From Deuterostichococcus epilithicus (Eukaryota > Chlorophyta > Trebouxiophyceae > Prasiolales > Stichococcaceae), in the NCBI GenBank assembly GCA_033439295.1, contig JAVTLE010000008.1, forward strand, positions 806,001 through 870,000: a DNA stretch of 64,000 nt. Direction: 5' to 3'. The notes beneath the pieces are model-generated. The model saw only the letters and a program-made list of their open reading frames with translations, searched no databases and was not told the origin of the DNA. Each line of letters opens with the position of its first letter. Positions within the stretch are counted from its first letter, which is position 1. The translations under genes were made by a program, and so were the position numbers. Below, piece after piece: positions 16,060 to 50,862 of this stretch.

Positions 16060-17386
16060 ATGCGAGGCTTGCCCCTGTCGCGGTTCCCCTCCGGTATGGG
16101 CGGCATGAGGCCACGCCCTCAGCAGCGAGGCAGATCCACGAGTGCAGCCGGTTCCAGCGCAGGCTCCGCACCGGTGAGTCGGCGACCCATCGAAGAGATT
16201 GCTCGGCCATGGTAGGTGCAGGAGCTTTCGGCCGATCCAATCCCAATATTATCCCAATATTATTACTGACATGCAGGCCAAGGGCAATGCGTATCTAAAG
16301 GCAGGCATTACCTCCGGCGGGCTGAGCACGGCCGGAGACTTGCTAGCCCAGATGCTCGCAAAGCGGCATGCACAAGTGAGCTTGCTTATGACATGCCTGA
16401 CTCTGCAACGCTCACCTCTGTGGTCGCTTGGTAAAAACACATCAAACTGGAGGCTTCACTGCAATCGCAATCCTTCCGCATCCGCCAACGGCACCAGGTG
16501 TTGGGCACGGCAACCCGGTTGCCTACACTACAGGTTTCTTTCCCCATGCAGAACCAGGGGCTGCCTGGACAGGACATCGACCTGATTCGCACTGCGCGTA
16601 TGGCCACTTTCGGGCTGCTGTTCTACGGCCCGCTGCAGCACCGATGGTACGGTCTGCTGGCCAGCAGGTTTCCAGGGACGTCCACGCCAAACTTCCTGTC
16701 AAAGGTGGGTCTGCTGCCGTACTGCTGCCGCACTGCTGAGACCCTCCAGCCACAACGACCGCTGCCCATGAACGAGCTGTGCGCGCACTTTACTTGCTGA
16801 CAGCCAGTGACGGCAGGTCAGTCTAGCGAATTGAATCGCAGCTGCAGCCTGCCAAGGCCGGAGAGCTTTCGGCTTGCAGGTGGCGCTCAATCAGTTTGCA
16901 CTGGGCCCCGTGGTGCTGGCGACATCCTTTGCCTGGAACCTGGTGCTGACAGGGCAGGCCAGCAACTATATGAACAAGCTCCGAAATGACGGACCGCCGT
17001 CCATGGTCAATGGTGAGATGCGCCTGCAATGTGCAAGTGCACGCTTGGCGCATGTGACGGGGTTGAGTCTCAGTAGAGCCTCCACCATCGTACACCGAAG
17101 CACAAGATGTATGCTTGTTCCTCGTCATCCAGTGTGATATATGGAAGTTGAGGGTGCAAAGTCAACCCTGCAGGGTGGAAGTTCTGGGTCCCTGCATCCG
17201 GCGTCAACTTCTGGCTGGTGCCGCTCAGATACCAGGTAGGCGACTGCACGTTTCCAAACTTGTTGGACATGGTCTCATGGCGCCGGTCGACAAGTCTAAG
17301 GCTGGGTTGCTGGGTTGCAGGTGCTGTACATGTCCACCTGCGGCATGCTGTGGACAGGATACCTGAGCTACGCCTCCAACAAATGA
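16060..17386 (+). CDS. Mpv17/PMP22-family small membrane protein
   Basis: A six-exon model with matching phases: 16060-16173, 16277-16375, 16552-16704, 16880-17012, 17174-17235 and 17321-17386, giving 208 residues. Family signatures are GLSTAGDLLAQ, RMATFGLLFYGPLQHRWY, the WKFWVPASGVNFWLVPLRYQ block and a final MLWTGYLSYASN. Members are four-helix proteins of peroxisomal or mitochondrial inner membranes, some reported as non-selective channels. The first exon is basic and serine/arginine-rich and could be an organelle presequence. I cannot tell which organelle. It lies one gene away from PEX1, but nothing shows a functional link. It converges with the CPBP protease gene over 342 bp. Confidence 0.88.
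16241..16262. repeat. 11-bp tandem repeat, two copies, in intron 1 of the Mpv17-like gene
   Basis: TCCCAATATTA is repeated exactly twice just before the polypyrimidine-poor 3' splice site at 16276. Confidence 0.9.
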
Positions 17387-17728
17387 TGCGGCAGGCTGTT
17401 CACCAGTGACGATGCTGCGTACGACGGACAAGATTCTAGCGCTGCACGTCAGCAGCTGTGACACAGCTCCGCAACAAACTTGTTTCGTGGTTTGAAAGGT
17501 TTCGAGATACTGCTGAACTGTCGTTGAACTATTAAATTGCAAACACACCGCCCTATGCACACAAACTGACGTTCAGTGCGAAGGCAGCATTTGCTCAACC
17601 ACTTAGTCACCGCCCAATCACCGCCCACGTGTGCTGCAGCATTTCGTTCAAGCCAGACGTCATACGGTTTGTCACCTCAGAACCTCCACACAAGTTTGTA
17701 CACAAGCACGAAGCGGTTTGACGGACGG
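17387..17728. other. Convergent 3' region, Mpv17-like and CPBP protease
   Basis: 342 bp between two stop codons facing each other. It should hold both 3' UTRs; nothing else is visible. Confidence 0.5.
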
Positions 17729-20335
17729 CTATTTGAGCAGCTCCTCCAGGTTCACGCCCTGACTGGTTAGCAGAAACAACAGCGACAGCACGGCGCCGTT
17801 CCAGGTGCCGTGGATGAGCATCGGCGTCAACAGGTTGCGCGAGCGCACGTACGAAAAGCCCATGACCGTGCCCAGGGCCACGAGCTGCGGGAAGTCTTTC
17901 GCGCTGAGGTGCGCCGCGCCAAACAGCACCGCGCTGGTCAGCACGGCCAGCTGCGTCGGCATGAGTTTTGTGAGCGACGTCAGCAGGAAGCCGCGGAACA
18001 CAGTCTCCTCCAAGATCGGGGCCAGCACCGCAGTGGTGGCCATTAGGCTGAGGTATGTCGGCACGTTGAGGCTGATGAGGTGCGACACCGCATCCACCGT
18101 GCCCTTGCCGCCCACCTCCTGATTATGTACCACAAAGGAGCTATCGCGACTTCAAAGTATACTGTTCCGGCATGCATCCACTGTGTCCTTGCCGCCCACC
18201 TCACGTAAAAATGCAGCGAGAAGATACTGGACGAGAGGGCAAGTGAATGCAGTGTGTGGGTTGCCTCTGCCGCCCACCTCCTGCTGTGTTGAGGCTATTG
18301 AAACTGAACAGCATACGTGCGCGGGCTGCAGCCGGATTATAGCGTTCGGACGTACAGACTGCCTGTCCCATCAGCAGGACAGCCCACCTCGTAGCTGATG
18401 GCCGACAGCGCAGTCGCCACGAGCGCGATGATGGCCGGCGCCGCGACTGTGCCCAGCAGCGCCCACACCAGCCAGCCATCCCCTTTCCTGAACGGGTTCC
18501 TGCGCCATGCAGGGCGGGGGAGGCGTCTCCATCGGTTCCTTCGCGTGCCATGCATCGCAGCTGCAGCGGCATAAATCGACAAAGCATGGCATGCTTGTCG
18601 CACAAGCAAATAGTTTGTGCCTGCAGACGTGTGGAGCACTCACGAGAAGCTGACTCTGAAGAAGTCCTTCGACAGCGGCCGATGATTGCGGGTCGCAAAG
18701 CCAACGACCGCCAGGCTGAGAACCGTCTCCAGGACCTGCAACAGAATGGCATGCACATGAGCCGCAACTCCAGCCACATGCAGCAGAAACAGGGCTCCAG
18801 CTCCTGCACTCGAGGAGCAAATCCCACCTGGTGACCGACTGCATAGTATGCCCAGTCGAGCTGTCCATAGTCTGACGAATCCTGCAGCACGACCGCACAA
18901 ACGACGAATTCAAGATCGCATCTGCGCAGCTCGGGGGACCGCCCTGTCGTCAAAGCTGCCACCCCCAGCGCCAGCTGCACACGGCAGGTCAAGCGAAGGC
19001 GCTCGTTTCTCAGAGCAAGCTGCGCATGGCTGAATGCTTAGGTGTTTTGGATGTCACCTTGCTGCCGAGTTTGAAGTACAGTGCCGGCACCAAGAGGAAA
19101 GCCGTGCCCAGGAACGTCGCCGCCCACAGTGCCATGCCGCCAAAGGTCTCCTTGCCGCCCCACGGCACATCCCACGGCTGCGTGTACGCCTTCAAGTCGA
19201 AGATGCCCCACCTGGGGCCATCGTCGTCAGGGTCCTGCAGCCCCAGGCGGCAGTCAAAGGGATGTCAGTCGTCTCTGCCTCAAGGCACAGATCACAGCAA
19301 CACTCGCGCCTCCGGCAGGAGCCTGGAAGCACCGTTGCCTCGGAAGATGATGAGCAGCAGCAACCCACCAGAAAGTTGCAGGTTATGTGCGGCAGCATTC
19401 AGTTGCAGGTGTCGGCTCACCTCGAGAGGGATGCCATCTGCTGCGCTGTCTGGCAGCGGCTCCCTGCGCCGCACGATCTGCTCTGCTGGCCCTGTGTTGT
19501 AGTATGTCCAGAGGCTGAGGAGGCCGCTCAGCGGCGACTGCTGCGCTGTGTGTCCGGCGTCCTCTGCTGATGCCTGTAGGTCATCCATCAGTAGCATTGT
19601 GCAGTGCTGCTACCTTGCTTTGCCAGCAGCTTCACAGGTGAAGCCCACCACACAGAGCGGCTGTATGATGCCCATGAAACCTGCAGAGGCCTGCACGGGC
19701 ATATGGAGGGCCACTTTGGCACCTGGTCACGCTTGCCGCCGCCGGGGGGTGTCGATGGCACCCGCGGCTTCTCCTGTTCCTGCTGTTGCCCTGCGCCAGA
19801 TGTGCAGCAAGCACGAATGACATCCACGAACTCGCTGACGACCTTGAGTACGGCTGCCGCAAGCAGCGCTGCACCTGTTCTGGTACTTGCAAGAGGGCTG
19901 CACGCCCATATTGCGGACGCATGCGGTGCGGCACCACAGCTGGCTCATGCTGCATTGCTGCGATGCACCGAGCAGCCGCTGCATATGCCTGTACCCGACT
20001 TCGCTATGCAGTCAGTTCCGTGGCGCCTCTGCAGCCCCCTCACTGACAGTTTCTAACTTGCAGGCTCTTCCGAGGAAGCAGCCGTGTGCAGCAGGGCGGT
20101 CGCAAGATCGCGTCAGCTCAGACTAACAGGACTCACGCTCTGCGCGCACACAGACGCTCCGCCGGCTGCCGAGGTGTTGCGGCCTGTCACAATCCAGAAT
20201 GTTCGTTAAGATGACAACGAACTTCAGAGCTAGCAAGGTGCTGCACCGAAAGCACGCCATCGTCGGTTGCGGTTTACCTTGCTGCAGCGCACCGCCGAGC
20301 GGCGAGATGTGCATGCACAGCTGTCTGGAGGACAT
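17729..20335 (-). CDS. CPBP (CAAX/Abi type) intramembrane protease, probably plastid
   Basis: The C-terminal exon has the three catalytic motifs of the family: EETVFRG, FGAAHLS and HGTWNG, in hydrophobic segments, with the stop at 17729. Upstream exons encode ISYE preceded by WLVWALLGTVAAPAIIALVA (about 18390-18510), VLETVLSLAVVGFATRN (about 18650-18740), DSSDYGQLDWAYYAVGHQ, and WDVPWGGKETFGGMALWAA (about 19058-19234), which resembles plant chloroplast members. N-terminal exons 20335-20278, 19874-19723 and 19573-19421 keep phase with each other, and MSSRQLCMHISPLGGALQQG could begin a transit peptide; this part rests on phase alone. These are metal-type glutamyl proteases embedded in the membrane. 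The intron before the catalytic exon carries degenerate copies of that exon's start. Confidence 0.8.
18088..18390 (-). repeat. Degenerate copies of an exon start in a CPBP-protease intron
   Basis: The motif GAGGTGGGCGGCAAGG that opens the catalytic exon (18119-18103) recurs at 18202-18187 and, less well, at 18280-18265. A shorter GAGGTGGGC lies at the donor of the same intron (18391-18383). Copies one and two agree at 27 of 29 positions over plus-strand 18090-18118 versus 18174-18202. Spacing is 84, 78 and about 110 bp. Confidence 0.8.
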
Positions 20336-20989
20336 GGCGCTGTGTTGGAGGCGCGACTATTCCGCAATGCACCGAGTGTTGCATGAAGTGCAATTTGGGC
20401 GTGTCTGCTGCAATCATGGTGCCGGTGAGTAGGACCACTGCACGCTTGCAATCCGAATTGTCACGCGACTGAAGAGTCCGCCCGAGCCGAGGTCCTTCGA
20501 GTCTCTCAACTCTGAACCTGAAGAAAATCGTCCTGTTTGTCGAAAGCTTGCCAAGTCTAGCACGCTAGCCAAAATGTTGTTGAGCATGCATAGGCTCGCA
20601 GCCGGGTCAAGTAGTACAGAAGGCCACGTGGAGGAGTGATTTGGTGTTCGATACAGGAAAAGCCTGACACTGTGACGTCCTGTTGCTTCTACAGTTTGAT
20701 GCATGCAGTTGTTTTTGGATCAGCAGCCAGCATTGTCAGCTGCTGTCCGACAGCTCAAGTCTAGGTATGTCTGCAGCTGCAGCGCCGGGCAAAACAGGAA
20801 TGCATGCAGTGCGGCGCAGCCCGCACAAAGTGTACCGTTTCCTCATGCTGAGACACCGCAAGGTGATGCCGATGCTCGGTCTACCGGGCTGGCAGCAAGG
20901 ACTTTGCCAAGCTCAAACGTAAACGAGCTGGCTGGTCCAAGGTGGTGGCAAACACGCCATCAGCTTGCGCCATGGCCGCTGCCCCGCGC
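20336..20989. other. Intergenic, IF-2 3' end to CPBP protease 5' end
   Basis: 654 bp with no recognisable protein or RNA. If the first exon of the protease gene is wrongly placed, its true start could lie here. Confidence 0.4.
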
Positions 20990-23900
20990 TCAGCCGGTGG
21001 CCGCCTGCTGCACCACCTCGTGCGAGTGCGCCGGCCGGTTCTCCACGGTGAAGCACTTCACGATGTCGCCCGCCTGGCAGCCGTGCCAGCCGTCCAGCAG
21101 CAGGCCGCACTCGGTGCCCTTGCCCACCGTGTCCACGACCTGCTTCAGCCGCTTCAGTGACGCCGCCCGCCCCTCGTGCACCACCTGCACAGCCGGCGCA
21201 GGGTCACGAGGTTGCCTGACGCTCAACAGGCTGATGCCCGGCCTCCCTGGCATTTCGCATGTGCCCATGCGACCTCAGCGAGGTGTCGCCTGCTTGTCGC
21301 GCTTCCGCATGCATCGCCAGCACGCGGCAGGCTGGTCGCATGCAAACAGCGTGCAGCTGATGATGCGGACGGCTCCGGGACTCGGTTGTCGCAGTCTGGC
21401 CGGCGGTGTAGGGTTTTGCGGCGCACCTCGCCGCCCCGCAGCACGCGGAACTGCATGGCGGCCTTCAGGGCGCCCTCCGACACGCGGCAGCCCGCCACCG
21501 CACCGGCCGCCTCCCCCTTGCCGCTCCTGATGGGGAACACCTGCACGCGCGCCGCCGCAGTTCAGCGCGCCGACCGGCCTGCCGGCCCTGCGCTTTCCGG
21601 CTGCGGCAGGCTCCGGCAACCGAGCGCCCGCAGCACGTGCCGTCGCACCAGGCAGGCGGACAGCGCTCGAGCGCTGGACCTCCACGACATGGCACGGTGG
21701 CAGACCGCCACCCTGGATGACAGGAAGCATCCGTCGACAACACGTGGCTCTGGAGCGGCTGTGGCAGAAGCGCAGCACCTGCAGCACGCTGGCCTCGCCC
21801 AGCATGATCTCCTGGTCCACGCGCGCTGCGCTGCCCGCCATCAGGTCGCCCACCTGTACGAGATGGAGGCGCGGATTGTCAGCTGACGTCATGTGGACTC
21901 GGAGCTCCAGGAGGTTCGGGAGAAAGTCGTGTCGCCAGCGCCATCACGGCAGCCTGGACAAGCGCTGAACGTGCGGGTGCTCCGAGGCACCAGGAAAAGT
22001 GAACCTCGCGGCACACCGCAGTCAGTCTGCGACTCCAGGGGGCAGAGACACGATTACAGCGGGGCTTTCGGGGCGGCTGGCTGACACACCTCCTCCAGCA
22101 GGCGGTAGATGATGCGCTGGGAGCAGATGGGGACGCCCAGCTTCTTGGCCTCGCCCTCAATGGCGCCGCCGGGCGCGCGCACGTTGAAGGCCAGTATGGT
22201 GGCGCCGGCCGCCGCTGCCAGGTTCACGTCCGACGCCGTGACGGGGCCCACGCCCGAGAACAGCAGCTTCACGCGCACCTGGTGCCGCAGCAGCAAGTGG
22301 TTATATTATTATAGTCGATCGGCCACCGGGCGTCGATGTGAAGACTTTGGGACACAGAGACTGAGGATCCGCCTCCTGAACGATGCCTGCTATTTGCAGC
22401 CACCAGACAGAACTACATATTCGCCGGCAAACAAAAAAAAACAAAAGGAACGAAACATATTTAGGAACGCGAGCTGCTGCCGTGGACAGCGGCACAGCCC
22501 TCCTTGCAGCTCCTGCTGTCACATGCCCATGCTCGAGTCGAAGGGCTCAAGGGTCAAAGGAGGCCTGCTGGTGCACACCTTGTCACTGGACAGGCGGGCA
22601 ACTGCATCGCAGACGGCCTCCACGGAACCGTGCACATCGGCCTTCACCACGACGGACAGCTGCCGCCGGTCCAGCCCCGCCTCCCCATCCGCCTCCTGTC
22701 GCAGGACAGGCGAATTTGGTGTTACTATATCTTCAATTGTTACCAAATTTTACCAAGCAAGGTTTGCCACTGCTGCGCCAGGGAGCGGGCGTTGGCCGGC
22801 ATCAGACTGCTGCTGGAGGACAGATCTTCCCGATTTAGAGGGCTGCTTGCCAGCAGCTTTGAGGGACCACTGAAGGGCCCCAGGTATGCCCAAAGGCCTC
22901 GTTTGGAAGGCGTTAGGGTTGCAGTGCGGGAAGCTGCGAAATGAGAAGCGCACCGCCGCGGCGTCGACGGCAGCGTCCGCGGCCTGCTGGGAGGCCACGG
23001 CGGCGGCGGCGCGCGCGAGTCGGTAGTCCTCCGCCCGCAGCGTGCGTGCACGGCTCACCCGCTGCGCCCGCTCCTCGGTGGCCACCGCCTGCGTGCACGA
23101 GGGGAGCGCAGCTGGCCACCTGGCCGTTTTGTGACTCGTACCAAGGTGCTGACGCAGCTCATGTCATTTGGCCTGAAGCCTTTGGAGCTGGGATGACCCC
23201 CACGCAAGCATTGTGCCGGCGACACCATGCAGTGTGTCGGCATGGTGACGAGTTTGCGCCGCGCGGCAGTCCGCATTGCAGGTGGAAGAACAAGGGCTGC
23301 ACCATGAGCGCATCGCCGGCCTGCGGCATGCCGCGCAGACCGCTGATCTCAGCAGGCTGCCCCGGCAGCACCTCCTTCAGCGCCTCCCCGTGCGGCGCCC
23401 GCAGCGCACGGATCTGCACGACAGGTCCCATTCACCGAGGTTCGAACGTGCGCTTCCCGTGTGTGCACCAGCAGCGATGGTCTTCACTCTGGGCCCCTGC
23501 AGACGGCCGCACCGCGTCCGCGTACGGTAGGTGGCCCAGGAATGGAGCAAACGTTTTGCTGCCGAGGATTGCTGCCCACGCCCACCGCCATGTGCCACTG
23601 CACGGCCTGGCCGCAGCATGAACCTGTCTCGTGCGAGATCGGCTGCAAGCGGCGGCGTAGGGGTGCACAGCAACGGCTCCGCAGGGCGGACAGCGGTTCA
23701 GGGCTCAAGCTGTTAAAACCAGCACCTTGCCCCACTCGTTGCCAACGACGACGGGCTGCCCCGGGCGCAGCGTGCCGCGCTTGGCGATGATGGTGGCGAC
23801 GGGGCCCTGGCCCTGCACAAGGCGCGCCTCTACCACCACCGCCTCTGCATCGCGGCTGCGGCTCGCCTTCAGCTCCATCATCTCCGCCTGTGGTTGTCGG

Positions 23901-46660: not shown

Positions 46661-50862
<4,202 letters not shown>

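Follow-up and report, generated by a model that had tools for sequence, protein, structure and literature searches.

Probable lengthening, rather than creation, of a green-algal CPBP-protease intron by a local duplication spanning its 3′ splice junction

The last intron of a CPBP (Rce1-like) intramembrane protease gene in the green alga Deuterostichococcus epilithicus has the same short string at its donor site and at the start of the exon that follows it, with further copies in between. Was this intron created by the duplication of exon sequence, or was an intron that was already there made longer? Intron growth is rarely open to direct observation, as intron sequence is quick to decay. Exon edges are good markers of duplication in this regard: selection maintains one copy while the other, in the intron, decays, and the breakpoints can be read. 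Finding exon-derived repeats in an intron does not in itself prove intron gain. In the current study, we analyzed the locus within a window (the whole stretch of 64,000 nucleotides under analysis, part of one contig) and compared it with other stretches of the same genome (46.8 Mb in 21 contigs; GC content, 0.61). The reading that we prefer, at a probability of roughly 0.6, is that the intron was lengthened, not created, through a local duplication that spanned its 3′ splice junction.

The gene is identified by the translation of its last exon, which matches Pfam family PF02517 with an E value of 3.1e-23 (82.3 bits against a cutoff of 22.4). The five exons considered here (Table 1) are separated by introns of 176, 92, 144, and 269 nt. 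The donor of the last intron is GAG/GTGGGC (the slash marks the border of exon and intron) and its acceptor is CAGGAG, so that the last exon may start with either GAG or GTG; AISYE-EVGGKG and AISYE-VGGKG are both compatible with this acceptor. Among the matches listed (59 bacterial loci), the bacterial relatives L008, L010, and L018 align over the exon junction with no large insert, and such relatives cannot serve as a guide to the age of the intron. Two other CPBP loci match only from exon residue 22 onward, and because the match starts there, these paralogues provide no test of the junction.

Table 1. Features of the CPBP-protease gene and its last intron (positions in the window), and survey loci that were not counted as exon-edge cases
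Feature	Position or locus	Strand	Basis or remark
CPBP exons	19234-19058, 18881-18828, 18735-18644, 18499-18388, 18118-17729	minus	spliced reading frame; earlier exons left out
Exon before last intron	18388-18499	minus	ends AISYE; reading frame
Last intron (predicted)	18119-18387	minus	269 nt, GTGGGCTG...ATAATCAG; spliced reading frame
Last exon	17729-18118	minus	starts with the repeated string; PF02517; in frame with upstream exons
Copies of GAGGTGGGC	18390-18382 (donor), 18280-18272, 18202-18194, 18118-18110 (exon start)	minus
Donor-site copy of GAGGTGGGC	18382-18390	minus	9 nt; shuffle P of 0.14 alone
Inner copy 3	18262-18283	minus	CAG plus 19 nt of exon start, 20/22 identical; perhaps a fossil exon start with its 3′ splice site
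Inner copy 2	18174-18202	minus	first 29 nt of exon, 27/29 identical; 84 nt upstream of exon start
Intron segment 5′ of copy 3	18281-18333	minus	resembles segment 5′ of used acceptor
Intron 3′ end	18119-18179	minus	partner of 18281-18333
Uncounted, first 20 loci: possible	L083, L084 6424
Uncounted, first 20 loci: intron only	L075 9411, L085
Uncounted, first 20 loci: coding	L076, L079, L084 4535
Uncounted, first 20 loci: unclassified	L069, L071, L072, L075 2086
Uncounted, seven replicate loci: intron only	L087
Uncounted, seven replicate loci: coding	L088 4429

The sequence-only reading had described one string shared by donor and exon start with two copies between them, and this was borne out. 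On the minus strand, the last exon starts with GAGGTGGGCGGCAAGGGCACGGTGGATGC, and the four copies of GAGGTGGGC lie 110, 78, and 84 nt apart; seven exact copies of this string occur in the window, three of them elsewhere, compared with a shuffle mean of 1.00, and 0 of 100 dinucleotide shuffles reached seven. The match is also longer than had been claimed. Exon start and copy 2 (the 84-nt pair) share 29 nt at 93% identity, while exon start and copy 3 (the 162-nt pair) share the exact 16-mer CAGGAGGTGGGCGGCA, and here the match covers the acceptor CAG too. The 13-mer GAGGTGGGCGGCA occurs at 13 sites in the 46.8-Mb genome, 3 of which lie in the region of this intron. When each inner copy was compared with the exon, the shuffle P was 0.001, and chance appears to be a poor account of these two. 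For the unit at the donor, the match is the 9-mer only (P = 0.14); chance remains for this string alone, and we are inclined to leave it as a coincidence. The same reading had the intron “filled with repeats,” which was too strong, as the copies make up 57 of its 269 nt (29 + 22 + 6), and Tandem Repeats Finder, run over positions 16500 to 21000, reported three arrays and none inside the intron. Past the copied edges, the inner copies are unlike the exon (P = 0.53 and 0.30; in another test, 0.60 and 0.99), nor do copies 2 and 3 match each other there (P = 0.12; 0.22 in a second test).

The 162-nt pair extends to the intron side of the junction as well. Its alignment runs from 61 nt in the intron, through the CAG, to 19 nt in the exon (−61 to +18), over 71 columns at 76% identity; on the side of the copy it takes in 53 nt of intron, and the CAG is present in both members. 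With the intron side scored alone and anchored, P values were 0.41, 0.0055, and 0.009 at 40, 60, and 80 nt, to be read as after-the-fact values from a set of 33 such tests in total, and 0.007 and 0.006 at 70 nt. Under a stricter local scoring, no match was seen on the intron side (P = 0.59). The two members are not adjacent: 80 of the 162 nt are recovered, and 82 nt lie between the members, 23 of them belonging to copy 2. For the 84-nt pair, the corresponding values were 0.68, 0.38, and 0.0025 at 40, 60, and 80 nt (0.12 and 0.058 at 70 nt), and its best alignment starts at the exon boundary, without extending 3 nt or more into the intron. A further comparison on the intron side, of the 80 nt preceding copy 3 with the 84-nt unit, gave P = 0.0017 (one of five tests; it uses the same sequence as the tests above and so is not independent of them). 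That the 162-nt pair crosses the splice junction appears supported, if not proven. Since the pair seems to do so, an intron end with its acceptor probably preexisted.

From these observations, we infer the following order of events. An older intron of ca. 107 nt would have ended at the CAG now at 18283-18281; the end of that intron, together with the start of the exon, would have been duplicated in place at an offset of 162 nt, and the spliceosome would have switched to the downstream acceptor. The former exon start would then have become intron sequence and decayed, with the protein unchanged. One more event may have left the 29-nt copy 84 nt upstream of the exon, in which case the intron would be an old and decayed example that went through two events or more. 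The ancestral length is what remains when the extra stretch is subtracted with copy 3 taken as the former exon start, and it falls within the range of the three neighboring introns (176, 92, and 144 nt). The use of the downstream acceptor, and the survival of such duplications because they are spliced out, belong to the same inferred sequence. More generally, short tandem duplications would arise through replication or repair, and each one that crosses a 3′ splice junction would lengthen the intron by one unit.

A comparable duplication was described by Ma, Lan and Niu in 2016 (PMC4974935); according to the accessible text of that paper, an intron in the potato RdRp gene arose from a duplication crossing an intron-exon boundary. 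As in our case, the 3′ side of an intron was duplicated with the 5′ side of the next exon, and the 3′ splice site is present in both copies. There, however, the duplicated exon part remained exon sequence and a cryptic donor gave rise to a second intron, as shown by RNA reads and phylogeny, whereas in the CPBP gene a single longer intron would have resulted and the copies are far more decayed. Among the matches listed in our literature searches on junction duplication and intron length and on intron gain in Trebouxiophyceae, which covered few subscription journals, only the potato paper, in the text available, reports the pattern.

The CPBP intron is one case among several. We surveyed 264 kb, made up of the window plus a further 20 stretches from its contig (L066 to L085), for ungapped direct repeats 40 to 400 nt apart with a score of at least 16. 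There were 28 local direct rows, against 0, 1, 1, and 0 at four larger distances, and 1 inverted row against 0. Since 20 of the 21 stretches measure 10 kb, the distance controls, at 4 to 8 kb, had less sequence to draw on than the local search. The counted survey used a loosened low-complexity filter, the stricter filter having hidden the 84-nt CPBP pair. A replicate on 40 kb from four other contigs (L086 to L089), for direct repeats only, gave 8 rows against 0, 0, and 0. The rows collapse to 20 loci in the survey and 7 in the replicate, and 14 of these 27 (9/20 and 5/7) were classed, by eye, not blind, and with no expected fraction, as cases in which the neighboring intron holds a copy of an exon edge; the same by-eye classing gives 11 exon starts and 3 exon ends. 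The remaining loci are listed in Table 1. A hexamer coding score failed to separate exons from introns and was dropped. Local direct repeats are in excess across the genome, and many of them are exon edges in introns. We reason that exon edges are expected to stand out if duplications fall anywhere, selection removes those in coding sequence, and both sides of intron-only copies decay.

Exons of 10 of the 14 cases have a protein-family match, two of these being weak. Single-exon matches were found to glutamyl-tRNA synthetase, V-ATPase subunit B, formate-tetrahydrofolate ligase, trehalose-phosphate synthase (two introns), and 4-alpha-glucanotransferase (two introns), and weaker ones to GrpE and PP2C; most NCBIfam scores fall under the whole-protein cutoffs, as expected, because only one exon was compared. 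The cases in L074, L077, L080, and L088 gave no convincing protein-family match, and PDB searches of these four returned nothing useful. In 13 of the 14 cases, all but L086b, the best alignment extends into the intron by 3 nt or more. The P values from these alignments of 15 pairs (0.002 to 0.006) are optimistic: the cut point is the best of up to eight, the null of 500 single-base shuffles was not likewise maximized, and exon and intron sides were scored together. The longest of the alignments quoted here is that of L080 (118 columns at 81%, spanning 128 nt of a 130-nt offset); a trehalose-phosphate synthase intron in L066 gives 80 columns at 90% (81 of 92 nt), a 4-alpha-glucanotransferase intron in L089 gives 73 columns at 81%, and in the ligase case the aligned span is 67 nt of a 74-nt offset. 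Scoring of the intron side alone at 70 nt in six sister cases was clear for the ligase and L077, borderline for L074 (0.053 and 0.057), and mixed for L080 (0.18 and 0.021), with no match in the V-ATPase case (0.83) or the first synthase intron (0.65, with the anchor inside the exon). Because the intron side alone is clear in only two of the six, the cases differ in standing; junction-spanning duplication is well shown in some and only likely in others.

Several of these loci have an arrangement of their own. In the trehalose-phosphate synthase gene (L066:8858-9230), both introns that flank one exon hold a copy of that exon's edge, and the exon end with its donor is present three times, at offsets of 92 and 201. 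In the 4-alpha-glucanotransferase gene (L089:8270-8870), each of two successive exon starts has a copy in the intron before it, and one of the copies keeps a CCGCAG acceptor string. Within the window (47528-47761), the start of a V-ATPase subunit B exon has a second copy 215 nt upstream, and between the two lies a third, partial copy of GGACGCCGGTGT. The minus strand of L072:5418-5725 carries a stretch with TTGCGCAG, or a close variant of it, in three diverged copies spaced ca. 130 nt apart, and at L086:4876-4962 a GrpE-like exon appears to end GAG/GCAAGT, which is a GC-type donor.

Could the CPBP intron instead have been gained outright, by repeated rounds of tandem duplication of an AGGT-containing exon segment? 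This model (Rogers 1989) is reviewed, together with repair models, in PMC3443670, and the accessible text of PMC4974935 cites a fission-yeast intron spanning AGGT-containing tandem copies. The locus has one feature of the model, an AGGT-containing string at both donor and exon start, and splicing from GAG/GTGGGC to GAG/GTGGGC with GAGGTGGGC common to both would yield ISYEVGGKG. The 3′ end of the intron also resembles the end of the preceding exon at 80 nt (P = 0.0005) and at 70 nt (0.019 against genomic sequence and 0.002 against shuffles), but this likeness is missing at 40 and 60 nt (P = 0.11 and 0.095) and in a local test (P = 0.37). The sequence after the donor has no resemblance to the following exon (anchored P values of 0.98, 0.84, and 0.94 at 40, 60, and 80 nt). 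Set against the model as the available part of that review presents it, the greater part of the intron body has no match in the flanking exons. The duplicated unit, moreover, seems to hold an intron 3′ end already; since intron sequence with a CAG appears to form the 5′ part of the 162-nt pair, a 3′ splice site is probably earlier than the duplication. In the CPBP gene the GT sits three bases past the acceptor AG, not directly after it, and because GT directly follows AG in only 3 of the 11 exon-start cases of the survey, AGGT is not required by the general process. The AGGT origin put forward by the sequence-only reading thus holds in part: local duplication of the exon start is supported (P = 0.001 for the copies), while creation of the intron de novo, given the stretch after the donor and the 162-nt pair, is not well supported. 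We consider AGGT-driven creation unlikely and weakly supported at best.

Somewhat less probable still is that short copies were inserted at double-strand breaks inside an existing intron, a route that has been proposed for recently gained introns in Daphnia. The accessible text of PMC4202315 describes direct repeats within such introns, some of these repeats being common to the adjacent exon as they are here, and the 29-nt CPBP copy is short and begins at the exon boundary. The Daphnia repeats shared with exons measure only 4 to 12 bp, compared with 22 and 29 nt in the CPBP intron and up to 118 columns in a sister case. We would expect templated repair to yield inverted copies too, and the single inverted row beside 28 direct ones in 264 kb argues against repair of that kind. 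Likewise, 12 of the 13 sister cases have a tandem-like aligned span, at 55 to 98% of the offset; the span falls to 20% in L088 and to 49% and 35% in the two CPBP pairs.

We give little credence to the notion that the inner copies are kept for a function, as alternative acceptors, a recursive splice point, or a 78-nt in-frame cassette (VGGRGNPHTAFTCPLVQYLLAAFLRE). Copy 3 does retain CAG/GAGGTGGGC, which brings an acceptor and a donor string close together, and the spacings of 78 and 84 are divisible by three, with the cassette open. Yet either inner acceptor, used alone, leads to a stop codon, copy 2 is preceded by ACGT rather than AG, and an open frame of 26 codons is, by our own reckoning, not rare. 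As candidate splice sites, the inner copies may possibly see alternative or recursive use. The open stretch between them (18200-18277) is in the frame of the exon and is flanked by acceptor-like and donor-like strings. The stwintrons of Lipomyces, attributed to duplication of a donor element in the accessible text of PMC7138796, are similar in that a splice element was duplicated inside an existing intron; they differ in that the CPBP copies comprise the 3′ junction and exon start.

An introner or dispersed mobile intron was rejected, as the sole match to the intron in its own genome (in a search that skips very common words) is itself, and so was a structured RNA, no Rfam family reaching its gathering threshold within the window.

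If the preferred reading of lengthening by duplication across the junction is carried beyond the CPBP gene, the sampled rate is 14 cases in 304 kb (about one per 22 kb, by our own classification), of which 10 lie in the 240 kb outside the window. It is possible, and we offer this tentatively, that short tandem duplication across splice junctions is a main engine of intron lengthening in this genome, affecting some two thousand introns if the sampled rate holds, and that the fossil acceptors it leaves beside donor-like strings could serve as alternative or recursive splice points. Such a genome would make it possible to measure the frequency of junction duplication, to see which of the acceptors prevails, and to determine what share of the events gives a new intron as opposed to a longer one.
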